From Moorella glycerini (GTDB lineage: Bacteria; Bacillota; DSM-521; Neomoorellales; Neomoorellaceae), in the NCBI RefSeq assembly GCF_009735625.1, contig NZ_CP046244.1, positions 2,790,001 through 2,854,000 on the forward strand: a DNA stretch of 64,000 nt. The letters run 5' to 3'. Each line of letters begins with the position of its first letter. The first letter of the stretch is position 1. The notes beneath the pieces were generated by a model that was given only the letters and a program-made list of their open reading frames with translations, was not told the origin of the DNA and did no database searches. Positions 10,518 to 47,765 of the stretch are shown piece by piece. Both the position numbers and the translations under genes were made by a program.

Positions 10518-11130
10518 TAGATAAACCTACTACCAACCATACCCTCACCCATCAGCATTTGCCTTGGCTGGTGCGGGTGGAAGCCCCGGAGCGGCTGTCA
10601 TGCCGAAGAGGAGACGGATACGCTGGTGAGAGGTGCTTCACGAAAAGTCCCATAGCGAAGAGCGGGGTGTACTCGTGAAGCGGGAACGTCACGGCGATGA
10701 GCAGGCGTTCCAGATGTGCCGTCATAGCGAGGAGCAGACGGCACCGGTGGGACCCAACCGATACAGCGGGCAATATGGCGCGACCGCCATGGCGAGGAGC
10801 AGGCGGCGCGAACCGGAAGATGGCCGGCGCTACAGGTCCGGCTCCTGGGTGAGCGGCGTAAGCCGCAGCGGCGGCAAGGAGGACACTTGCCAAGGCAAGC
10901 CGTAGTAACCCTTGTAACTAACCGTCCTAAGCGCCACAGGCCGGAGCCGCCCATCTCCAGTGGCGCAAAGAGCAGGAGGGGTGGCTGCCTCCTTTAAAAA
11001 CGGGCTAAGCGCCGGAAAAAGGCTTGCCCCCAGCCTTCGGCGTTACAAGTTTAGCGTAAAGCTACCAAACCGGGGCAGGATGAGCCGTATGTAGCGGCGC
11101 AAACATGTAAGAAAAGTAAAGAATGGCGGC
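10518..11130 (+). ncRNA. Large structured non-coding RNA candidate with four loop-conserved hairpins
   Basis: About 600 nt lack a convincing gene but are dense in helices. Four hairpins with unrelated stems present one loop consensus, CAYRGCGADGAGCRG: 10651-10665, 10690-10705, 10723-10737 and 10788-10803. Their closing stems include GCTTCACGA/TCGTGAAGC (10635-10643/10673-10681) and GTGCCGT/ACGGCAC (10716-10722/10738-10744). Further helices are GCGGC-GTAA-GCCGC (10853-10866, a GNRA loop), GCGCCAC/GTGGCGC (10931-10937/10960-10966) and AAGGCT/AGCCTT (11019-11024/11032-11037). A strong promoter precedes it. The size and complexity recall the large ornate RNAs of mobile elements (ROOL, GOLLD, HEARO classes), but no class was matched. 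Confidence 0.65.
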
Positions 11131-11961: not shown

Positions 11962-12351
11962 ATGAGTTTAAAAGACCATATCAAGAACGCCAACCGGGAA
12001 GGAAGCGGTCTGGGATTCCTGCACGGCCGCAAGAAGGGCGATTTCGAGTGGATCATAGGGAAGGAGATTGCGTTGGAAAACGCCGCCATTGTCCAGAGTA
12101 ATTATAACGATGGCGCCGAAAACGTGATCTTCACCGTCCAGGGCGACAACCGGCATTATTACCGCACCGGTGGCAATGTAGTCGTCAACGGCTTCAAAGA
12201 GATCGCCGAAGGACTCGAAGAAGAAGGTTTAAGCTGGGACATAATAGGAGTGACCTTCAACTGGGTCAAATCAAAGAACGGGCGGGCTTACTACACCGCC
12301 AGGTTCCGCGATTTACGTAGCCCAGCCGAAGGGGAAGATGAGGCAATTTAA
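11962..12351 (+). CDS. Hypothetical protein behind a hairpin-spaced leader
   Basis: The ~129-aa protein beginning MSLKDHIKNANREGSG has alternating strands and helices (ENVIFTVQGDNRHYYRTGG, then GFKEIAEGLEEEGLS). No family was recognised. ATG 11962 is chosen over the upstream GTG-type frame extension because the extension is the leader hairpin itself. It lies in the same direction as the ArdC/RadC cluster and shares its leader type. Confidence 0.55.
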   Translation: MSLKDHIKNANREGSGLGFLHGRKKGDFEWIIGKEIALENAAIVQSNYNDGAENVIFTVQGDNRHYYRTGGNVVVNGFKEIAEGLEEEGLSWDIIGVTFNWVKSKNGRAYYTARFRDLRSPAEGEDEAI

Positions 12352-12396
12352 CCTTGCCAGAACGCCATCGGCGTAATAAGATGGAGGTGAAGGCAG

Positions 12397-12705
12397 GTGA
12401 TTGCCGTGGAAGAAACGAAGAAAGAGACGGCAACGACAGGAGATCATCCGCACCGTCTGGTGTCGGAAGAATTTTTCTTCCTGCTGAACCGGATCGACCG
12501 TCTGGACGAAAAGATGAGCCTCAAGTTTGAGGAGATGCGGGAAGAAATTACTGATGTCCGTAAGGAAGTTAACGATGTCCGTAAGGAGATTAACGATGTC
12601 CGCAAGGAGATCGGTGGCATTAGCCGCTGGGCTTTCGGCCTGCTGGCAACTATGCTGGTAGGTTTTGCCGGCGTAATCGTCACCCTCGCCTTGGGACTAC
12701 GGTAG
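12397..12705 (+). CDS. Membrane-anchored coiled-coil protein with 7-residue repeats
   Basis: The 102-aa product has an N-terminal polar segment, a coiled coil made of DVRKE(I/V)N repeats, and one C-terminal transmembrane helix (WAFGLLATMLVGFAGVIVTL). It is the longer of two adjacent paralogues. The start is GTG 12397 or the in-frame GTG 12406. The layout resembles small tail-anchored Bdr-like or DUF1640-like proteins; the function is unknown. It may oligomerise at the membrane. Confidence 0.6.
   Translation: MIAVEETKKETATTGDHPHRLVSEEFFFLLNRIDRLDEKMSLKFEEMREEITDVRKEVNDVRKEINDVRKEIGGISRWAFGLLATMLVGFAGVIVTLALGLR
12553..12610 (+). repeat. 21-bp tandem repeats in the coiled-coil gene
   Basis: The unit GATGTCCGTAAGGAGATTAAC occurs as copies beginning at 12553, 12574 and 12595, the last partial, with a few substitutions. 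Each adds one DVRKEIN heptad. The neighbouring paralogue lacks them, so the array has changed copy number since duplication. Confidence 0.85.
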
Positions 12706-12765
12706 GAAGAGGCAATTTAACCTTGCCAGACTGCCCTCGCCGTAATATGATGGAGGTGAAGGCGG

Positions 12766-13011
12766 GTGATTGCCATGGAAGAAACCAAAAAGGAAACGGC
12801 CTCGGCAGGGGATCCTTCGCACCGTCTGGTGTCGGAAGAATTTTTCTTCCTGTTGAACCGGATCGACCGCCTGGACGAAAAGTTAAGCGCCAAGCTAGAT
12901 GATATGCACAAGGAGATGGGTGGCATCAACCGCTGGGCTTTCAGCCTGCTGGTAACCATGCTGGTAGGATTCGCCGGCGTAATCGTCACCCTCGTCTTGG
13001 GACTACGCTAA
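12766..13011 (+). CDS. Shorter paralogue of the membrane-anchored coiled-coil protein
   Basis: The 81-aa product shares the N-terminus (HRLVSEEFFFLLNRIDRLDEK) through RIDRLDEK and the C-terminal membrane helix (MLVGFAGVIVTLVLGLR) with the preceding gene, but lacks the heptad repeats. The ~40 bp upstream of both genes are also nearly identical, so a gene with its leader was duplicated in tandem. The start is GTG 12766 or ATG 12775. A strong terminator follows. Confidence 0.6.
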   Translation: MIAMEETKKETASAGDPSHRLVSEEFFFLLNRIDRLDEKLSAKLDDMHKEMGGINRWAFSLLVTMLVGFAGVIVTLVLGLR

Positions 13012-13131: not shown

Positions 13132-13171
13132 GGAAGGAGGAAAGGGGCGGGCTGGCGGCCCGCCCGGAAAG
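13132..13171 (+). promoter_or_regulatory. Hairpin-spaced SD leader 2
   Basis: SD GGAAGGAGG (13132-13140) is 31 nt from ATG 13172. The stem GGGCGGGC/GCCCGCCC (13145-13152/13158-13165) removes 21 nt, leaving 10. An upstream GCCCGCCC near 13110-13117 could pair with the same GGGCGGGC arm, giving an alternative fold that loops out the SD. Confidence 0.65.
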
Positions 13172-14048: not shown

Positions 14049-14086
14049 AAGGAGGACAGGGGCGGGCCGGAAGCCCGCCTGAAAAC
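14049..14086 (+). promoter_or_regulatory. Hairpin-spaced SD leader 3
   Basis: SD AAGGAGG (14049-14055) is 31 nt from ATG 14087. The stem GGGCGGGC/GCCCGCCT (14060-14067/14073-14080) spans 21 nt, leaving 10. The preceding ACCTTATCCAACGG is shared with leader 4 (ACCTTATCTGACGA). Confidence 0.65.
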
Positions 14087-14627: not shown

Positions 14628-14667
14628 AAAGGGGGAAAGGGCGGGCCTGTGGCCCTCCCCAAGCACT
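14628..14667 (+). promoter_or_regulatory. Hairpin-spaced SD leader 4
   Basis: SD AAAGGGGG (14628-14635) is 32 nt from ATG 14668. The stem GGGCGGGCC/GGCCCTCCC (14639-14647/14651-14659, one C-T mismatch, 3-nt loop) removes 21 nt, leaving 11. Confidence 0.6.
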
Positions 14668-14885: not shown

Positions 14886-15872
14886 ATGCAAGCGTTAAAG
14901 GATACCAGCGAGCCTTTCCGGCGGGTTTCCCGCCGGGAGCCCTGCCCTATCTGCGGCAAAACCGACTGGTGCGGGATTAACTCCCGCCTGGCGGTGTGTA
15001 TGCGGGTCGAGAGCGATTACCCGGTAAGTAACGGCGGCTGGCTGCATAAGCTGGCCCCTGGAATGGTAAAAGAAGAGGTTATCACGCCGGCGGAAACCAA
15101 TCCCGCAGCGCCTATAGCGATAAGGGACCGCGTCTACCGGGCCTTTTTAAACTCCCTGCACCTGCTGCCGGAGCATAAAAAAGACCTGTTGCGGCGCGGT
15201 TTATCCGAGGAAGAGATCAAAAGAAACGGTTATAAGAGCGTACCGGCGCCCACGGAGCGCTGGCGGCTATGCAAAGAGTTAAAGGATCGGAAATACGTCC
15301 TGACCGGCATTCCGGGCTTCTACCTGGCCCGGGGCCGCTATGGCGGCCATTACTGGTCCTTTAAAGCGTTGCCGGGGTATTATATCCCGGTCCGCGACAG
15401 AGAGGGCCGCATCCAGGCGCTGCAAATAAGGCTGGATAAACCGGACAGTTACGGCAAGTACCGTTTTTTCAGCACCCCCAATCAAACCGGCGGTTCCTCC
15501 TCCGGTGCCCCTTGCCATGTGGCCCGGCCGGAGGACCCAAAAGACCGCCGGGTATGGGTGACGGAAGGGCCGCTGAAAGCCGACATCGCCTCCCGATATC
15601 TGGGTTCCGTTTTTATCGGTGTTCCCGGCGTCAGCAACTGGCGCCCGGCGGTAGAGGCAATCCAGGAACTGGGAGCAAGAGAAGTGGTAATAGCCTATGA
15701 CCGCGATAAGAACTTGAAAGACGCCGTAAGGCGTGCGGAAAGAGAATTAAAGGCAAATTTGAGAAGAAAAGGCATAAGAGTATTTATAGCCTCCTGGAAT
15801 CAGGAAAAGGGAATAGACGACGCCCTGGTTTCGGGATGCGAAATAACGGTAAAAGAAGAAAGGGGAGCGTAA
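14886..15872 (+). CDS. DUF3854/Toprim primase-like protein
   Basis: The 328-aa protein has an N-terminal zinc-finger-like segment (CPICGKTDWCGI, CMRVES) and a C-terminal Toprim-type core with VTEGPLKADIAS, GVPGVSNW and VVIAYDRDKN. Such DUF3854 proteins occur in mobile elements as primase-like or replication-accessory factors. The SD AAGGAGGG is at 6-7 nt. The stop overlaps the next ATG (TAATG). Primase activity is not proved, as the RNA polymerase domain is not obvious. Confidence 0.7.
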   Translation: MQALKDTSEPFRRVSRREPCPICGKTDWCGINSRLAVCMRVESDYPVSNGGWLHKLAPGMVKEEVITPAETNPAAPIAIRDRVYRAFLNSLHLLPEHKKDLLRRGLSEEEIKRNGYKSVPAPTERWRLCKELKDRKYVLTGIPGFYLARGRYGGHYWSFKALPGYYIPVRDREGRIQALQIRLDKPDSYGKYRFFSTPNQTGGSSSGAPCHVARPEDPKDRRVWVTEGPLKADIASRYLGSVFIGVPGVSNWRPAVEAIQELGAREVVIAYDRDKNLKDAVRRAERELKANLRRKGIRVFIASWNQEKGIDDALVSGCEITVKEERGA

Positions 15873-16667: not shown

Positions 16668-17212
16668 AAGGAAAAGGGGAGGAGCTTTTATGCTCCTTCC
16701 CTGAAATAACCGGACGGACGTGTAATGAACTATTTTCGCAGGTATGGTCGGCCTGCGGGGGCTAAATAAGCCCGAAGGCCTTAAAGCAGCAGCGGCGCTG
16801 CCAAATCGCCGCCAGCCCTGACCCGGCCCCAGGACCGGGTCGCCCCCAACGGGGGTAAGGGCTGCTATCTGCCCCGCAAGCTTAAGGCTTGCACCGCCGC
16901 AGGCGGCATGGGCAGTGTGAATACTCAACTTAAAAATTGGCGTGCGAGGCCAATACGGGCTCCGGGAGAACCGGAGGCCGCGGCGGCCGGGTGGAACACG
17001 CAGACAATCGAATAAGGCGGTAAAACGGGAAACGGCCTTAACGTTGACCGACGGCAGGAGGACAACGTTAAGGCGGGCCACCCGGATCGCCGCCGGCCGG
17101 GAGGCCGGCGGGGATACGGGGGGCCGGAAACGGGCGCAGCCCGTCTCAGGCACCCCGAAGGGGGGCACTGAGACGGGCTAGGCGCCGAAACCGCAAAGCC
17201 TCGTAAAATAAG
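16668..17212 (+). ncRNA. Second large structured RNA candidate with two three-way junctions
   Basis: There is no credible gene over ~640 bp, but nested perfect helices are many. AGCCCT/AGGGCT (16814-16819/16858-16863) closes GACCCGG/CCGGGTC and CCCCC/GGGGG. CTGCCC/GGGCAG (16869-16874/16910-16915) closes GCAAGC/GCTTGC and CCGCC/GGCGG. CCGGGTGG/CCACCCGG (16987-16994/17078-17085) encloses the 12-bp GCCTTAACGTTG/CAACGTTAAGGC (17035-17046/17063-17074). CCGCCGGCC/GGCCGGCGG (17090-17098/17103-17111) and the 11-bp GCCCGTCTCAG/CTGAGACGGGC (17139-17149/17168-17178) follow. A 10-bp stem at 16676-16701 preceded by AAGGA looks like a decayed hairpin-spaced leader. The class is unknown. Confidence 0.6.
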
Positions 17213-17305
17213 GCAATACGGGAATCGGGAAAAGGTTTTTACCGCAAAAAAACGACGAAACGCATCTCGCCAGGGCGGAATGCCTTACATAACTATTACT
17301 TTTTT

Positions 17306-18739
17306 GGCTCCTCGCTATTTCGTGTGGGTAAAACCAATTATCGAAAAGGAAGTAAATTATTTCTAGCATGTTGAGATTCCATAAATGGTAATTTTAGCCT
17401 ACAAGACTTGCTAACATTTATGTAAATAAATGACAACAAGAAGGAATATCGCCTTATAGTGTAGAAATGCTGGTCAATACTGGTGGTAAAGGAAGTGGCC
17501 AGCATTGCCCGACCAAAACGCCTTATTTGCCCATGCCCTGGGTCTAACCCCTCCCTGGAAGGTTACCGAAGTTATTTTCTCAAAACAAAAAGGGTGCCTC
17601 GATATCCATGTTGATTTTGAGCGCGGTGCAAGCTTTAATTGTCCAGTCTGCGGCAAACCTGGAGCCAAAGCCTATGATACGGAGAAGCAGGTTTGGCGCC
17701 ATCTGGACTTCTTTCAATATCAAGCCTTCATCATCGCCCGTGTACCCCGGGTAGAGTGTAAACACGGCTGCGGGGTCAGGCGAGTTGAGGTACCCTGGGC
17801 TCAAGGGGAGGGCGGGTTTACCCTCTTGTTTGAAGCCCAGCTCATGCGCCTGGCCAAAGATATGCCTATGGCTGCCGTAGCCAGATTATTAAACGAACAC
17901 GATACCCGGCTGTGGCGGGTAGTAAAACATTACGTGGTGGCCGGCAGAGCCAAGGCCGACTTTAGTGGTGTAACCCGCATCGGTATCGATGAAACCTCCG
18001 CCCGGAAAGGACACGATTATATCACCCTGTTTGTGGATTTAGATAAGGGCGCATTACTGTTTGCCACCCCGGGCAGAGCTAAGGATACCATTGCCGCTTT
18101 TGTAGAAGATTTTATCCAGCATAACGGTAATCCAGAAGCCATTAAGGAAGTGTGCTGCGACCTTTCACCGGCATTTATTGCCGGCCTTAAGGAGCACCTT
18201 TCCCATGCCACCATAGTTTTAGACCGTTATCACCTCATGCAAATAGTCAATCAGGCCCTTGATGAAGTACGACGCCAGGAGAGCCGGGAGACAGACCTTT
18301 TAAAGAAGACCCGTTATCAATGGCTTAAGAACCCTGCCAATCTGACCAGTAAACAAAAAGCAAGCATAGAGGCCCTTAGCCGTTGCCATCTAAAAACCGG
18401 GCGAGCCTATCGCATCAAGCTGGCCTTCCAGGATCTTTTTAACCAGCCTGATCGGAAGAGTGGCGAAGCCCATCTCAAGCGGTGGTATTTCTGGGCGACC
18501 CATTGCCGCCTGCAACCGATGATTGAGGCTGCTAAAACGATTAAACGCCACTGGGAAGGAGTGCTAAGTTGGTTTAACAGCCGTATTTCTAACGGCCTCC
18601 TGGAGGGTACCAACAGTCTATTGCAAGCTGGAAAAGCAAAGGCTCGTGGCTATCGTAATAAGGCTAACTTTATTACCATCTCTTATCTTATTGCTGGTAA
18701 CCTGGATTTTGGTTTACCCACTTGATGTAGCGAGGAGCC
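17306..18739 (+). mobile_element. ISL3-family insertion sequence, 1434 bp
   Basis: Terminal inverted repeats begin GGCTCCTCGCTA on both ends (17306 onward; complement ending 18739), with further matched GTGGGTAAA blocks. An exact 8-bp target duplication ACTTTTTT flanks it (17298-17305 and 18740-18747). It encodes one ISL3 transposase and appears intact. It inserted between the structured RNA region and the tandem integrase genes. Confidence 0.93.
17505..18725 (+). CDS. ISL3-family transposase
   Basis: The 406-aa protein has an N-terminal zinc-binding region (CPVCGKPGAKAYD, then CKHGCG), an HTH-like segment, and the DDE core: RIGIDETSARKGHDY, then CCDLSPAFIAGL and VLDRYHLM, with the terminal acidic residue in NGLLEGTNSLLQ. 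This is the full ISL3 layout and normal length, so it is probably active. The start is TTG 17505. Confidence 0.93.
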   Translation: MPDQNALFAHALGLTPPWKVTEVIFSKQKGCLDIHVDFERGASFNCPVCGKPGAKAYDTEKQVWRHLDFFQYQAFIIARVPRVECKHGCGVRRVEVPWAQGEGGFTLLFEAQLMRLAKDMPMAAVARLLNEHDTRLWRVVKHYVVAGRAKADFSGVTRIGIDETSARKGHDYITLFVDLDKGALLFATPGRAKDTIAAFVEDFIQHNGNPEAIKEVCCDLSPAFIAGLKEHLSHATIVLDRYHLMQIVNQALDEVRRQESRETDLLKKTRYQWLKNPANLTSKQKASIEALSRCHLKTGRAYRIKLAFQDLFNQPDRKSGEAHLKRWYFWATHCRLQPMIEAAKTIKRHWEGVLSWFNSRISNGLLEGTNSLLQAGKAKARGYRNKANFITISYLIAGNLDFGLPT

Positions 18740-18759: not shown

Positions 18760-19245
18760 ATGGCCAGGATGTTGCGCATCCAGTGGAAGCCGACCGGCAA
18801 TGAAGCTTACGACAGGCTCCTCGGGCAATTTGTGGAACGGGTGGCCAGGTATGCGCGGGGCGGTTCTATCCAGACGAGAATGAGGAAGTATGAACGCTAC
18901 CGCGCCTTTTTACGCTTTTTAGCGGCTCAATTCGGACCCCAGGACATCCGCAACATCCAGCCGCGCCATGTGGCGGCCTATATCGCCCACCGCCGCCAGG
19001 CGGGGGTGCAGGAAAAGACAATCTTAGCTGAACTCTCAATAATTAGATGGTGGCACAACCAGATCCCCTGGCGCAAATACGAAATGCCGGATAATAAGAC
19101 CCTGTTTGAACTGGAGGAGAAACTGAATGACAAAACGTTCAGCGAGGAAGTCCGGTACCGGTATAAAATCACCCACTCCCGAAGGCGACGGCTTATTTCA
19201 CAATCTCGAAATCCAGTTCGAGAAAGTCTACCGGCAGGCCGTTAA
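18760..19245 (+). CDS. Integrase core-binding-domain-only protein (truncated paralogue)
   Basis: Residues up to ~115 (GSIQTRMRKYERYRAFLRFL, then ILAELSIIRWWHNQI) parallel the SAM-like core-binding domain of the downstream tyrosine recombinase, but the catalytic domain is missing. The last ~40 residues overlap the next gene and are low-complexity basic. It may be a degenerated tandem copy or a deliberate DNA-binding modulator. The ISL3 right end lies 20 bp upstream, so its original promoter or 5' end may have been displaced. Confidence 0.5.
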   Translation: MARMLRIQWKPTGNEAYDRLLGQFVERVARYARGGSIQTRMRKYERYRAFLRFLAAQFGPQDIRNIQPRHVAAYIAHRRQAGVQEKTILAELSIIRWWHNQIPWRKYEMPDNKTLFELEEKLNDKTFSEEVRYRYKITHSRRRRLISQSRNPVRESLPAGR

Positions 19246-20083
19246 AGATACCCAGGGAAAGGTAAGCATAAAGACCCATTTTCGCTACCGGGACAGCATG
19301 AAAAAATTCCTTTCATTTTGTGCCACCAGGTTCCGGTTGCAAAACCTGCGGAATATCAGCGACAAGCACCTGGAGGCCTACATCGATTACCGCCGCGGGA
19401 ATGAAACAAGCGAGAAAACGATAAAAGGGGACCTGGCGGCAGTCAGATTCTTTCATCGCTACATTGAGGGTGCCAGGTTCCAGCTATCCGGGAACGAAAA
19501 ATTCGGCCTGGCTTCAACCCCGGACGGCCGGGCGGACCGGGCCTGGAGCGACGGCGAATATAAGAAGATGATAGCCCTGGCGGAAAGACTGGATCGGCCG
19601 GAGGTGGCCCTGGCCATGCGCCTGGCCAGATATGCCGGGCTGAGGGTGCACGAAATTACCCGCCTGTCCCGGAAAGATGCCGAACAGGCCCTTGCCGCCG
19701 GTATGCTGCATGTGAAGGGCAAAGGCGGAAAAGAACGCGATATCCCCTTGACGACGGAAGCAGTCGCGACCTTAAAAGAAGCCTGTGAAATGGCGGCAAG
19801 TGAAAATGACAAACTCCTTGTACCCCCCGGAGAAAAAACCCACCTGGTTATTAAGCGGATCCAGAATTTCATTAGACGGCACCGGGATAAGGTAATGGAA
19901 TCAGGAAAGGAAGTCAACATTACTTTCCACGGCCTGCGGCACGCTTACGCCCGGGAGCAGTTCCGGGTAAAGGTGGGCGAGTTGAAGAAAATAAGGCGAG
20001 CCCTGGCGGAAGTATCGGAAAAACTGGGTCACAACCGGCCGGAAGTTACAAAAATTTACCTGGGATCGCAGTGGAAAAGATGA
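19127..20083 (+). CDS. Tyrosine recombinase/integrase
   Basis: The 318-aa protein has an N-terminal core-binding domain (SIKTHFRYRDSMKKFLSF) and a full catalytic set: R173 (YAGLRVHE), K197/K202 (KGKGGKERDIPL), H268-x-x-R271 (HGLRHAYA), H302 (LGHNRPE) and Y311 (KIYLGS). It should cut and rejoin DNA through the tyrosine. Since integration is more plausibly done by the serine recombinase at the element end, this one may resolve dimers or act on an internal site. Confidence 0.85.
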   Translation: MTKRSARKSGTGIKSPTPEGDGLFHNLEIQFEKVYRQAVKDTQGKVSIKTHFRYRDSMKKFLSFCATRFRLQNLRNISDKHLEAYIDYRRGNETSEKTIKGDLAAVRFFHRYIEGARFQLSGNEKFGLASTPDGRADRAWSDGEYKKMIALAERLDRPEVALAMRLARYAGLRVHEITRLSRKDAEQALAAGMLHVKGKGGKERDIPLTTEAVATLKEACEMAASENDKLLVPPGEKTHLVIKRIQNFIRRHRDKVMESGKEVNITFHGLRHAYAREQFRVKVGELKKIRRALAEVSEKLGHNRPEVTKIYLGSQWKR

Positions 20084-20980: not shown

Positions 20981-21043
20981 TACCAACAAAAGAACAACCC
21001 CATTAAAATTGAGGTAGATATGAAGATTGATCACTGAAGCCGT

Positions 21044-21085
21044 AAAGGGCACCGGGAAGTTATTTTCCCGGGCCTTTTCTTTTTG
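21044..21085 (+). terminator. Rho-independent terminator
   Basis: AAAGG...CCTTT encloses CCGGGAA/TTCCCGG (21052-21058/21065-21071), followed by TTTTCTTTTT. It isolates the XRE unit from the coupling-protein gene. Confidence 0.85.
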
Positions 21086-21098
21086 GGAGGTGTTTTTT

Positions 21099-23084
21099 AT
21101 GTTCAACAAGATATTTGCTGGTTTGACGGAGAAAACCGGCAACAACGGCATAGGGCTTTTTTTGCTGGCAATCGGCCTTATAACGAGCCTGGCGGTATTG
21201 TACATCATCGACGTGTGGTTGCTCGGTCCTGTAGCCGCCATCTTTGCGGCAGCTTATAAATGGCTGGCCGGGGGTCTGCACGAGCATCCCAATTATACTG
21301 TGGCCTGGTGGTACTTCCAGCACCCGCTGGCAACCGCCAGGGCCTGGCTGGGCGGCCACCTCTACCAGCCGGAAGTACGTTCCTGGTGGATCGGCCTAAA
21401 TGTGTTAATTGCAGTAATGTGGACCCTGCGCCGGATAGCCTGGCAATTTGACTGGACGATTATTAAAACCAACGGCATAAAGATAAAAATAGATGACGCC
21501 ACCTACGGAAGCGCCAGGTGGGCCGTGAAAAGCGACCTGGCGCGAGTTTGCGACTTCGGCTTCGGCCCGGGAATAGTCCTGGGGGCTTTAGGGAGAGTAC
21601 CAGTGCGTATTCCTCCTAAGCCCAAAACCTGGATGAACCGCCATGTACTCGTGGTCGGTGCACCAGGTTCCGGCAAAAGCCGTGGCTATGTCCGGCCCAA
21701 TATCTTTGCGGCGGTCCGGTCAGGGGAGAGCGTCCTGGTGACGGATCCCAAGGGCGAGCTTTACCGCAGCATGGCCGATTGGCTAAAGTCAAAAGGGTAC
21801 ACGGTTAAGGGTTTCAATCTGGTCCAAATGGAACAATCGGATCACTGGAACCCTCTGGCAGAGATCCGGACCCCCCTGGATGCCGACGTTTTTGCCCAGG
21901 TGGTTATCAGCACAACTGAAACCGGGCCTAAAAAGGGCGGTGACGCCTTCTGGGACCGGGCTGAACAGAACTTGCTAAAAGCACTGGCCCTCTATGTAAC
22001 CACAGAACTGCCTGCGGATATGCGCCATTTTGGCTCCCTTTATGATATATTAGCTGCAGGTGATTTTGAACAAGTAGATGCCTTGTTCGCTAAACTTCCA
22101 CCGGGCCATCCAGCAAAAGGACCGTATAATGTTTATGCCATGGCCGGCGATAACGTCAAAGGTGGAGTGGTAATCAGGCTGGGTACCCGGTTGCAAGTTT
22201 TTCAGCAAGAAATGGTGCGACGCATAACTGGTGACAGCGATATAGACTTAACGTTACCCGGCAAGGGAAAGTGCGCTTACTTCATCATTACCCCGGATAC
22301 CCACGGCGCCTTTGATTTTCTGGCTTCACTGCTGTTTACTTTTTTATTCGTCCGGCTGGTGGAGGTTGCTGATACTTCTCCCAATGGCCGTTTACCGGTG
22401 CAGGTCAGATTTCTCCTGGATGAGTTCGCCAATATCGTAAGCATTCCGGAGTTTGAAAAGAAAATCGCCACCGTCCGCAGCCGCGGCCTCGACTGCCACG
22501 TTATAGTCCAGAGTATTCCCCAGCTGGAAAGGAAATATGGACGGACATGGGAGGAAATAATGGCCTGCTGCGACACGAAGTTAATTATTGGTGTTAAGGA
22601 CGACACGACCGCCCGTTACGTGAGCCGCATGCTGGGGGAAAGTACTGTGGAAACAAAGAGTGCTACCAGGGAAGTTAATCCTATATGGGGACAGGGGTTA
22701 TTTGACGACAAGCGTAGCCTTGGTATTACCGGCCGGGAACTGATGACCCCGGACGAGATTCAAAAGATGCGTTCCAGGTTTTGCATAGCCTTTCTCCCTG
22801 ACGGCACCCCGCCGGCGAAATTAAAAGTGCTGGATTATGAGCAGTTCCCGGAAGCCAGGGAGTTGAAGAATGTTGTAGTCATGGAAAAGAGGGAAAAAGA
22901 AAAAGAGCTTGAGACTGGTGATAAAACCGACGATGGCGGGAATGATGATTACCGTAGTATCGAGGACCAGAAACTTGTAGAAGATGAGGGAGGAAAGGCA
23001 AGGGAAGAAAAAATAGAAAAAGGGACTAGGGTTATAGAGACGCAAAATAACACGGATAGCGGGAAAACAGTAGTCCCATGGTAA
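21099..23084 (+). CDS. VirD4/TraG-family type IV coupling protein
   Basis: The 661-aa protein has two N-terminal membrane helices (FLLAIGLITSLAVLYIID; WIGLNVLIAVMW) and a hexameric ATPase domain with Walker A GAPGSGKS near residue 187 and Walker B FLLDEFANI near 438, as in T4CPs that deliver relaxase-bound DNA to a conjugation channel. A long charged, low-complexity C-terminal tail follows. The start is ATG 21099 with SD GGGAGGTG; the earlier TTG 21027 lies before the terminator. This is the main evidence for conjugative transfer in the window. Confidence 0.92.
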   Translation: MFNKIFAGLTEKTGNNGIGLFLLAIGLITSLAVLYIIDVWLLGPVAAIFAAAYKWLAGGLHEHPNYTVAWWYFQHPLATARAWLGGHLYQPEVRSWWIGLNVLIAVMWTLRRIAWQFDWTIIKTNGIKIKIDDATYGSARWAVKSDLARVCDFGFGPGIVLGALGRVPVRIPPKPKTWMNRHVLVVGAPGSGKSRGYVRPNIFAAVRSGESVLVTDPKGELYRSMADWLKSKGYTVKGFNLVQMEQSDHWNPLAEIRTPLDADVFAQVVISTTETGPKKGGDAFWDRAEQNLLKALALYVTTELPADMRHFGSLYDILAAGDFEQVDALFAKLPPGHPAKGPYNVYAMAGDNVKGGVVIRLGTRLQVFQQEMVRRITGDSDIDLTLPGKGKCAYFIITPDTHGAFDFLASLLFTFLFVRLVEVADTSPNGRLPVQVRFLLDEFANIVSIPEFEKKIATVRSRGLDCHVIVQSIPQLERKYGRTWEEIMACCDTKLIIGVKDDTTARYVSRMLGESTVETKSATREVNPIWGQGLFDDKRSLGITGRELMTPDEIQKMRSRFCIAFLPDGTPPAKLKVLDYEQFPEARELKNVVVMEKREKEKELETGDKTDDGGNDDYRSIEDQKLVEDEGGKAREEKIEKGTRVIETQNNTDSGKTVVPW

Positions 23085-31318: not shown

Positions 31319-33019
31319 TTGCGCGCGGCGGCCCTTTACCGGGTAAGTACAAAACGGCAAGTAAAGAACGAAGAAGATAGCATACCCGTCCAGCAGCATT
31401 TATTAAGAAGCTACGCAAGCGAACGCGGATGGGAACTTGTGGCCGAATACCTGGAACCTGGAGTGTCGGCCTATAAACTATCTTCTATGGATAGGGATAT
31501 CCTCCAGGACGCCCTTCGTGACGCTGAAACTGGGAAATATGATGTACTTCTTGTTTTTAAAGCCGACCGCCTCAGCCGCAATAGCTTCGAGTACCCTATG
31601 GTGTTATGGCGATTGCACCGGGCTGGAGTGGAAGTAATTGCCGTGGCCGATGCACCGGGAGGCCGCAAGCTTAACGTCGATGACCAGATGGAAAAACTCC
31701 TACGTTTTATTGAGGGGTGGCAGGCCGAAACCGAAAGCAAAAACACCTCCATTCGCGTTTCACAGGCAATGCTTGAGTTGGCCCGCCAGGGAAAGTGGAC
31801 CGGTGGCCGGCCTCCTTATGGTTTTAGGCTATCCTCTTCCAAAAACGGTTTGCCCCTCGAAATAGAACCTCAAGAGGTAGAAGTTATTAAAGAGATGGTC
31901 AGGCTATACCTGGAGGAAGACATGGGGAGCAAGAAAATTGCCGAAGAGCTAAACAGCCGCGGTCTAAGGACCAGAGAAGGCAGGCCCTGGCGGGATTCCC
32001 GGGTAAGGGACGTGTTGCAGAACCCTATTATTGCAGGGCTGCCTGCGTATAACCGGACCAGGCAAGGAGACAGGCCAGGACGCCAGGTTAGAGTGAGAAA
32101 CCGTTACGATATAAATAATCCGGAGATAATTATCCCCAGGGATGAAAACGGCAACCCCCGTCCAGTACCGGAGTATACCATTATCCCATTAGAAACCTGG
32201 CTCAAATTAACCCATAAAATGAAGTCGTTGGCCAGCAACACAGCCCCTGATACCAGGACGCTGGATAGCCCGGCTCTCCTGACAGGTTTCTTGAAGTGCG
32301 GCTATTGCGGGAGAGGATTTGTATCAAGCAAGAAAAACAACTCTAAAGTCATGGCCCCTAATGGCAAGATTTACAACTATAAAAGAGCCTCTTACCGTTG
32401 TGTAACGAAGGCCCGCATAAGCACAGAGTACTGCCAGGGTCAAGGAAGTTATTCGCAAAAGAAAATAGATACCATCTTTATGGCAGAACTCGAGAATTTC
32501 CTATCAAATCTTGACCTGGGCAACCTGGAAAATTATATTAACAGTAGGCAGTCTTTCAATATGGCCAGGGTACAGCACCAGATAAAGCAGTTGGAAAAAG
32601 AACTTGAAAAGGCTAGACGCCGGCACAAGAACTGGGTGGACCGTTTAAACCAGTTTTTTGCCGAGCCGGATAAAAGCATTTACAGCGAAGAGTTAATGGC
32701 CAGGGAAATCAAAAAGGCAGAAGATGATATGGCTCAACTGGAAAAGCAATTAGGAGAGCTAAAAAGCGAATACCAACAAAACCATATCGAAAGGGAAAAG
32801 CTGCAGCAGTTCGTCAAGCTGGCTCCCCACTGGTTCGAGATATTTAAAGAGGCGCCTACCGACATAAAGAAAAGGATGTTAGCCCAAATTATAGACCGGG
32901 TAATCCTCTGGCGCGACAGGATGGAGATACTATATAAAGTAGACCTTACGAGGTTGGCCCAGGCTACAGGGGAAACAGCAGATGGCACGGTCGAATTGCG
33001 GGTTGCGGTATCAATGTAG
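31319..33019 (+). CDS. Large serine recombinase (site-specific integrase)
   Basis: The 566-aa protein has a resolvase-type catalytic domain with nucleophile Ser10 (LYRVSTKRQ) and the arginine block FKADRLSRNSFEY, a recombinase domain (GKWTGGRPPYGFRL), a zinc ribbon (CGYCGRGF, then YRCVT and YC) and a C-terminal coiled coil (~420-520). These enzymes integrate elements between attP and attB without accessory proteins. TTG start after AGGAG. It sits at the element's very end beside broken tepA, so it is the probable integrase. Confidence 0.93.
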   Translation: MRAAALYRVSTKRQVKNEEDSIPVQQHLLRSYASERGWELVAEYLEPGVSAYKLSSMDRDILQDALRDAETGKYDVLLVFKADRLSRNSFEYPMVLWRLHRAGVEVIAVADAPGGRKLNVDDQMEKLLRFIEGWQAETESKNTSIRVSQAMLELARQGKWTGGRPPYGFRLSSSKNGLPLEIEPQEVEVIKEMVRLYLEEDMGSKKIAEELNSRGLRTREGRPWRDSRVRDVLQNPIIAGLPAYNRTRQGDRPGRQVRVRNRYDINNPEIIIPRDENGNPRPVPEYTIIPLETWLKLTHKMKSLASNTAPDTRTLDSPALLTGFLKCGYCGRGFVSSKKNNSKVMAPNGKIYNYKRASYRCVTKARISTEYCQGQGSYSQKKIDTIFMAELENFLSNLDLGNLENYINSRQSFNMARVQHQIKQLEKELEKARRRHKNWVDRLNQFFAEPDKSIYSEELMAREIKKAEDDMAQLEKQLGELKSEYQQNHIEREKLQQFVKLAPHWFEIFKEAPTDIKKRMLAQIIDRVILWRDRMEILYKVDLTRLAQATGETADGTVELRVAVSM

Positions 33020-47557: not shown

Positions 47558-47573
47558 ATAATTAACTTAATAG

Positions 47574-47723
47574 GGAACAGGTGCCTGACAGGTTAAAAGG
47601 GAATCAGGTGTAAATCCTGAGCGGTCGCGCCACTGTAACCGGGGAGCCTGCTTCAAGGCCACTGGTATTATACCGGGAAGGCGAAGCCAGGCAAGGAGCC
47701 GGAGCCAGGAAACCTGCCTGTTC
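47574..47723 (+). ncRNA. Cobalamin riboswitch
   Basis: The conserved B12-aptamer pieces are present in order: GGGAATCAGGTG, GCGGTCGCGCCACTGTAA, GGGAAGG, and the B12-box region GAGCCAGGAAACCTGCCTG. P1 GAACAGG/CCTGTTC closes it. Binding adenosylcobalamin should favour the downstream terminator and shut off the operon. Confidence 0.95.
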
Positions 47724-47765
47724 ATTTCACCCTCGCGTTAAGGGGCCGCAAGTTAGGTTATGTAA

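Follow-up and report, generated by a model that had tools for sequence, protein, structure and literature searches.

A conserved structured unit, putatively a large RNA, upstream of a recombinase pair in a candidate mobilization module of a Moorella conjugative element

Mobilization of Salmonella Genomic Island 1 (SGI1) requires MpsA, MpsB, oriT and a self-encoded RNA, sgm-sRNA (PMC9299015, PMC6414798). MpsA is an atypical relaxase of the tyrosine-recombinase family, and MpsB is a 98-aa protein with a core-binding domain only (PMC9299015, PMC6414798). The essential sgm-sRNA is made as a primary transcript of 650-700 nt with its 3' end just upstream of mpsA, and the SGI1 authors raised the possibility that it is a relaxosome component (PMC9299015, PMC6414798). 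Tyrosine-recombinase-type proteins have also been proposed as the relaxases of pCW3 (TcpM) and pIGRK (MobK), with oriT upstream of the gene; MpsA, TcpM and MobK are all without a core-binding domain (PMC9299015, PMC8152469). In the set of literature searched, SGI1 was the sole case found.

Here we analyzed a 64,000-nucleotide stretch of Moorella glycerini DNA (the window). As in SGI1, an RNA (putative here) lies upstream of a tyrosine-recombinase-type gene and is accompanied by a core-binding-only partner, GC-rich inverted repeats and a coupling protein, the last of which is required in SGI1. Unlike SGI1, which is an IME, the window element is a Gram-positive conjugative element in which the core-binding protein (rec1) precedes the recombinase (rec2); its structured unit has two three-way junctions, and the likeness rests on gene content and layout. 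The module is also like TcpM and MobK in its tyrosine-recombinase-type relaxase candidate with a possible oriT upstream, whereas neither an RNA nor an MpsB-like partner has been reported for those two (PMC8152469, PMC9299015). Our preferred reading, to which we assign a probability of roughly 0.55, is that the unit is a structured RNA of about 600 nt in the mobilization module of an integrative conjugative element, a module comprising the RNA and/or oriT, rec1, the relaxase candidate rec2 and then VirD4. The RNA family appears to be new, and the kind of system has one precedent, SGI1.

The initial annotation had described positions 16668-17212 as a long structured RNA with consecutive three-way junctions. 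Every helix that it named, including AGCCCT/AGGGCT and CTGCCC/GGGCAG, can be read off the sequence and is part of the minimum-energy fold, in which a long-range stem GCGGTAA/TTACCGC encloses the 12-bp, the 9-bp and the perfect 17138-17179 hairpins. The conserved unit is longer, beginning at 16668-16675 and ending at about 17305 (Table 1); its 5' edge adjoins a small ORF and its 3' edge is the start of an ISL3-family insertion sequence. Folding beyond chance, as the initial annotation had argued, was borne out by shuffled controls. The minimum-energy fold of 16668-17250 had -304.5 kcal/mol, compared with -237.9 +/- 7.5 in dinucleotide shuffles (n=100; z -8.9), and 0/100 shuffles were as good. 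In a rerun with 30 shuffles per sequence, the z-score was -9.1 for the unit, -4.7 to -12.1 for its homologues, and -2.0 and -1.2 for two coding controls from the same element. Since the complementary strand folds equally well (z -9.8), fold energy alone tells neither RNA from DNA nor one strand from the other.

Table 1. Features of the structured unit and its surroundings in the window
Feature	Position	Strand	Basis and remarks
Whole conserved structured unit (putative RNA)	16668..17305	+	Fold z -8.9/-9.1; ~90% identical and diverged copies; flanked by small ORF and recombinase pair
5' hairpin GGGGAGGAGC/GCTCCTTCCC	16675..16702	+	Minimum-energy fold; G009 and G001 differ in sequence and keep pairing
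Three-way junction 1, closed by AGCCCT/AGGGCT	16814..16863	+	Minimum-energy fold; equivalents in relatives
Three-way junction 2, closed by CTGCCC/GGGCAG, 'CAT' before closing 3' strand	16869..16915	+	Helices 1-3 of alignment A9
Conserved single-stranded motif GTGAATACTCAAC, 3' of junction 2	16917..16929	+	Aligned in 14/14 A9 members
Core helix GCGTG...CACGC, GA/GA (k-turn-like) step, inner GGC/GCC helix, 3'-flank AGACA	16940..17006	+	Helices 4-5 of A9
Variable hairpin region: 12-bp hairpin (17035-17074) and 9-bp hairpin (17090-17111)	17035..17111	+	Fold
Perfect hairpin of conserved sequence, arms AGCCCGTCTCAG/CTGAGACGGGCT	17138..17179	+	GTCTC-type hairpin survey; candidate protein-binding site or oriT inverted repeat
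3' hairpin and U-tract, terminator-like but 16 nt apart	17262..17305	+	Compensated changes in G001/G012
DUF3854 primase-like gene	14886..15872	+	PF12965; upstream anchor common to sister elements
ISL3-family insertion sequence, 8-bp duplication ACTTTTTT	17306..18739	+	PF01610; absent from G009, G001, G012
rec1, core-binding (SAM-like) domain only, 161 aa, MpsB-like architecture	18760..19245	+	PF12834/PF02899; alignment A3; no catalytic domain
rec2, full tyrosine recombinase, candidate relaxase	19127..20083	+	PF00589, PF12835; alignment A4
VirD4-like coupling protein, CD1115 family	21027..23084	+	NF045973, 422 bits, cut-off 250
Large serine recombinase	31319-33019		Available as integrase

A protein-coding reading of the 170-aa ORF on the minus strand was rejected, as the ~90% identical copies differ by indels of 1, 2, 3 and 12 bases. 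Known Rfam families were also ruled out: none of the Rfam 15 covariance models reached its gathering score over 16668-17305, where only weak chance matches at E up to 5 appeared, and the RNA regions of the relatives likewise gave no match at gathering score. GOLLD, ROOL, OLE and HEARO/omega RNA are large, multi-junction RNAs that are often linked to mobile elements; the window unit resembles them in size, junctions and mobile-element link and has no convincing Rfam match. The Rfam xerDC and int-alpA motifs are structured elements near recombinase or integrase genes and are much smaller; neither was matched in the scans of the unit or of the relatives' RNA regions. A promoter and terminator scan of the + strand of the unit found neither a sigma-70 promoter nor a canonical terminator, and made no terminator call at the 3' hairpin and U-tract. 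Searches of plasmid and phage DNA gave no match.

Copies with ~90% identity occupy the same place in the same element in three other genomes (G009, G001 and G012), and a 3'-truncated copy was found in G003 (Moorella mulderi type). In the latter genome, a diverged version replaces the RNA's 3' end as well as the beginning of rec1, as if the two had been swapped together (L019:9240-10120). Diverged copies were reached via the neighbouring DUF3854 gene and then via the recombinase pair. They comprise Desulfofundulus-type loci (L061, L075, L076, L112-L115, L124) and further ones (L062, L073/L116, L074/L117, L118, L085). In Desulfofundulus, Desulfovirgula and several uncultured Bacillota the architecture persists although nearly all of the sequence has turned over. 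We built a covariance model, R1, from junction 2 and the core (27 pairs; junction 1 lies outside the model), trained only on five Moorella-type sequences, and modelled the same alignment without structure as R2. R1 found the diverged copies at E 4e-11 to 0.007, all in the expected position. Desulfofundulus-type copies scored 29-36 bits with R1 and 10-14 bits with R2, and L062 and L085 were matched by R1 and missed by R2, which indicates that the signal is carried by structure. Over whole genomes R1 was insensitive and missed copies that it detects when given the locus directly. Among rejected candidates, BLAST matches in G005/G006 lay inside an aroB-like gene, and R1 matches in L055 (E 0.02-0.04) fell in a stretch of a sister element that looks protein-coding. 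No viral contigs with rec1 were found.

In alignment A9, which contains 14 distinct sequences, standard pairs filled 93.4% of the cells in the 27 pairs, compared with 72.6% in shuffles. Eighteen of the 27 pairs had changed on both sides in diverged relatives (9.1 +/- 1.3 in shuffles), and both-side changes were seen in 63 cells (18.8 in shuffles). Pairing kept through changes on both sides, the mark of a conserved structured RNA, was therefore observed. Of the two outcomes that the initial annotation had named as refuting its claim, shuffled sequences that fold equally well and homologues that do not conserve the pairs, both were checked and neither occurred. Its core claim is thus supported as regards structure; that the unit is transcribed is what we infer. 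A9 was fitted to the structure, a bias in its favour, and this is unlikely to be the full explanation of the covariation, given the effect size and the slid controls, in which moving the partner by 1-3 columns left 32-46% paired and 5-9 pairs changed on both sides. In the helices of junction 2 (helices 1-3), 93-96% of cells were paired and 14/18 pairs had changed on both sides. Equivalents of junction 1 with other sequences stand directly before junction 2 in L062, L073, L074, L075, L085, L118, L121 and L123 (folds, aligned by eye); in L074 a simple hairpin replaces junction 2. Of the whole structure, these two junctions have the best support. The unpaired motif after junction 2 is TGAATACTnAAC or a close variant in all A9 members. 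The core helix has the consensus GCGYGN...NCRCGC with facing GA/GA, then AGACA, and GA..GGA and the 3' GACA are kept in most types; the GA/GA step may form a k-turn. A9 holds 11 G-U cells and 3 A-C cells, which leans weakly towards the + strand as the folded strand. The long-range stem and the 12-bp hairpin show no variation among the closest relatives and are replaced in the others, and covariation therefore says nothing about them; at the place of the variable hairpin region, other relatives have different long hairpins or, in L074, almost none.

One hairpin behaves differently from the junction stems. Its arms, CCCGTCTCAG/CTGAGACGGG, with GTCAC or GTCTG variants at more distant loci, keep their letters, and the spacing between them ranges over 8 to 52 nt. 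This pattern suggests an oriT element or one bound by a protein. Hairpins of the GTCTC, GTCAC or GTCTG type with arms of at least 9 bp stand 128-279 nt upstream of the recombinase at nearly every RNA locus (489 nt in L085), compared with none in 557 kb of control sequence, both strands counted.

Every copy of the structure adjoins the recombinase pair on its upstream side in the same direction, with a VirD4/CD1115 coupling protein nearby. In the window, the order is topoisomerase, S1-domain protein, PemK-like, ArdC, RadC, DUF3854, small ORFs, the unit, the ISL3 insertion sequence, rec1, rec2, small ORFs and VirD4 CD1115, with the large serine recombinase farther right; to the left lie a VirB11/TadA-like ATPase and a VirB4-type ATPase whose closest model is TcpF of pCW3. 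The insertion sequence sits exactly at the U-tract that ends the RNA and splits the RNA from rec1 in this genome only. Some ~119 bases belong to both rec1 and rec2, read in different frames, and relatives retain this overlap. The catalytic residues of rec2 (R173, K199, H268, R271, H302, Y311) are invariant in A4, and rec2 carries its own core-binding domain (PF02899/PF12834/PF13495 at residues 45-115). Like SGI1, the window has a catalytic tyrosine recombinase with intact residues and a core-binding-only partner, but rec2 departs from MpsA in having a core-binding domain; for this reason we do not class the module as an SGI1-type member, only as one working like it. With its core-binding domain, rec2 looks like an ordinary recombinase, a point against the preferred reading.

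A comparison with sister elements of the genus (L055-L059), including one that the same genome carries on its 50-kb second contig, revealed what stands in place of this block. These elements have ArdC, DUF3854 and VirD4 and are devoid of the RNA and the recombinases; between DUF3854 and VirD4, directly before the latter, they carry a relaxase ORF of 425-837 aa. Pfam identifies it as MobL, and where the MobP3 model was run it matched at 284 bits (cut-off 150). In the window element, the slot of this relaxase is occupied by the RNA, rec1 and rec2. We searched for relaxases with three Pfam families (PF03432, PF02486, PF01076) and MobP3. MobP3 was absent from the window element, its matches in G000 lying only outside it, and was matched nowhere in G009, G194 or G288, genomes that carry the RNA type; the matches in G000, G001, G003 and G010 are sister elements, and that in G012 lies on a different contig. 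The only PF03432 match was weak and lay on the sister replicon of G000, with none in the window element, and PF02486 gave none in the genomes searched. The PF01076 search was uninformative, its control being silent everywhere. What the analysis shows is a conserved structure in a fixed position, the replacement of this block by a MobP3 relaxase in sister elements, and a window element devoid of MobP3.

Because the putative RNA precedes recombinase-like genes in the slot of the sister relaxase, it probably helps the element to move between cells; the initial annotation had not assigned it to mobilization. The resemblance to the SGI1 module in gene content and layout suggests an RNA that acts with rec1 and rec2. 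In the mechanism we propose, the unit would be transcribed, and rec2, with rec1 as its DNA-binding partner, would nick the transferred strand. The RNA, containing or adjoining oriT, would work with both proteins at transfer initiation and, as was proposed for the SGI1 sgm-sRNA, may scaffold or license the relaxosome or the docking of the latter to the coupling protein, and the conserved CCCGTCTCAG hairpin would serve as a protein-binding site or oriT inverted repeat.

The strongest rival is a role as DNA only, in which the region is a large oriT or single-strand origin that folds once the transferred strand is displaced, with rec1 and rec2 recognising its hairpins as IntI does on integron attC. 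The equal folding of both strands allows such a role, the kept letters of the CCCGTCTCAG hairpin are as expected of a DNA site, and in SGI1 the oriT consists of arrayed GC-rich inverted repeats that lie upstream of mpsA (PMC6414798). However, unpaired motifs (GAATACTnAAC, GACA) and the GA/GA helix step are conserved, and ~600 nt is long for an oriT; the G-U excess fits a folded + strand, although a folded + DNA strand would look the same. We regard a DNA-only role as unlikely.

A cis-regulatory leader, attenuator or riboswitch-like, that controls rec1/rec2 expression would fit the position immediately upstream of both genes in the same direction at every locus, as well as the 3' hairpins and U-rich tracts, a terminator-like end being visible in the L073 sequence. 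Yet the unit is far larger than known leaders, the terminator scan found no consistent terminator, and the corresponding SGI1 RNA acts in trans without raising MpsAB expression (PMC9299015), all of which makes a leader quite improbable to us. Nor do we favour rec1/rec2 as an integrase or multimer resolvase with the region as their recombination site or checkpoint RNA. The complete catalytic residues and core-binding domain of rec2 would suit such a function, and relatives sit on small plasmids; nevertheless, the pair occupies the relaxase slot, the separate large serine recombinase is available as integrase, which would free rec1/rec2 for another role, and the arm spacing of 8 to 52 nt in the inverted repeat is unlike a tyrosine-recombinase core site. 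This possibility seems very improbable.

The mobilization reading may extend beyond this element. At somewhat less than even odds, we tentatively propose a widespread new class of large RNAs that are partners of tyrosine-recombinase-type relaxases in Gram-positive conjugative elements and plasmids, forming RNA-containing relaxosomes of which SGI1 has been an isolated Gram-negative example. If true, a large group of Gram-positive elements would depend on a structured RNA for conjugation, the SGI1 case would become a general principle, and a testable model of RNA acting in DNA transfer would be at hand. Plasmids with rec1 relatives were all typed as non-mobilizable (11/11), and such a class could explain this call by relaxase-based typing for some of these elements.

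In other Bacillota, further recombinase loci (L119, L120, L121, L122, L123) combine multi-junction folds of a similar kind with a GTCTC/GTCAC hairpin; they had no R1 match and are probably more distant members of the class. Long structured non-coding stretches lie upstream of rec1-related plasmid recombinases in Paenibacillus polymyxa pSb31s (L101:2432-3366) and Alicyclobacillus p1 (L103:3335-3991). On Vallitalea pronyensis pVpro, 1.3 kb of non-coding DNA precedes a tyrosine recombinase and a CD1115 VirD4 gene; it contains a GTCTC-type hairpin and a structured 108-bp unit that is repeated 4.6 times with 96% matches (L102:3083-3575). R1 matched none of these stretches, whether in Paenibacillus, Alicyclobacillus or Vallitalea, and we therefore treat them as leads only.

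The initial annotation had further related the unit to another candidate RNA near 10.5 kb through a shared GGAGGAC and raised the prospect of two giant RNAs in one element. This kinship is not supported: the 10.5 kb region had no R1 match, and its z of -2.7 is near that of coding DNA. The + strand of the window holds 8 copies of GGAGGAC, a common Shine-Dalgarno-like word that gives way to GGAGGTA or GGAGGGC in relatives. On these grounds, two giant RNAs in one element are not established. The 10.5 kb region itself (10540-11120) contains repeats of the type CCGTCATAGCGAGGAGCAGACGGC and is 76-98% conserved in Moorella.

Elsewhere in the window, GC-rich hairpins recur between Shine-Dalgarno-like GGAGG and gene starts (13144-13165, 14059-14079, 14638-14658), possibly for translation control. 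A gene of ~90 aa with 21-bp internal repeats is tandemly duplicated at 12332-13010, and a cobalamin riboswitch (Rfam RF00174, 119.8 bits) lies at 47562-47735, to the right of the serine recombinase.
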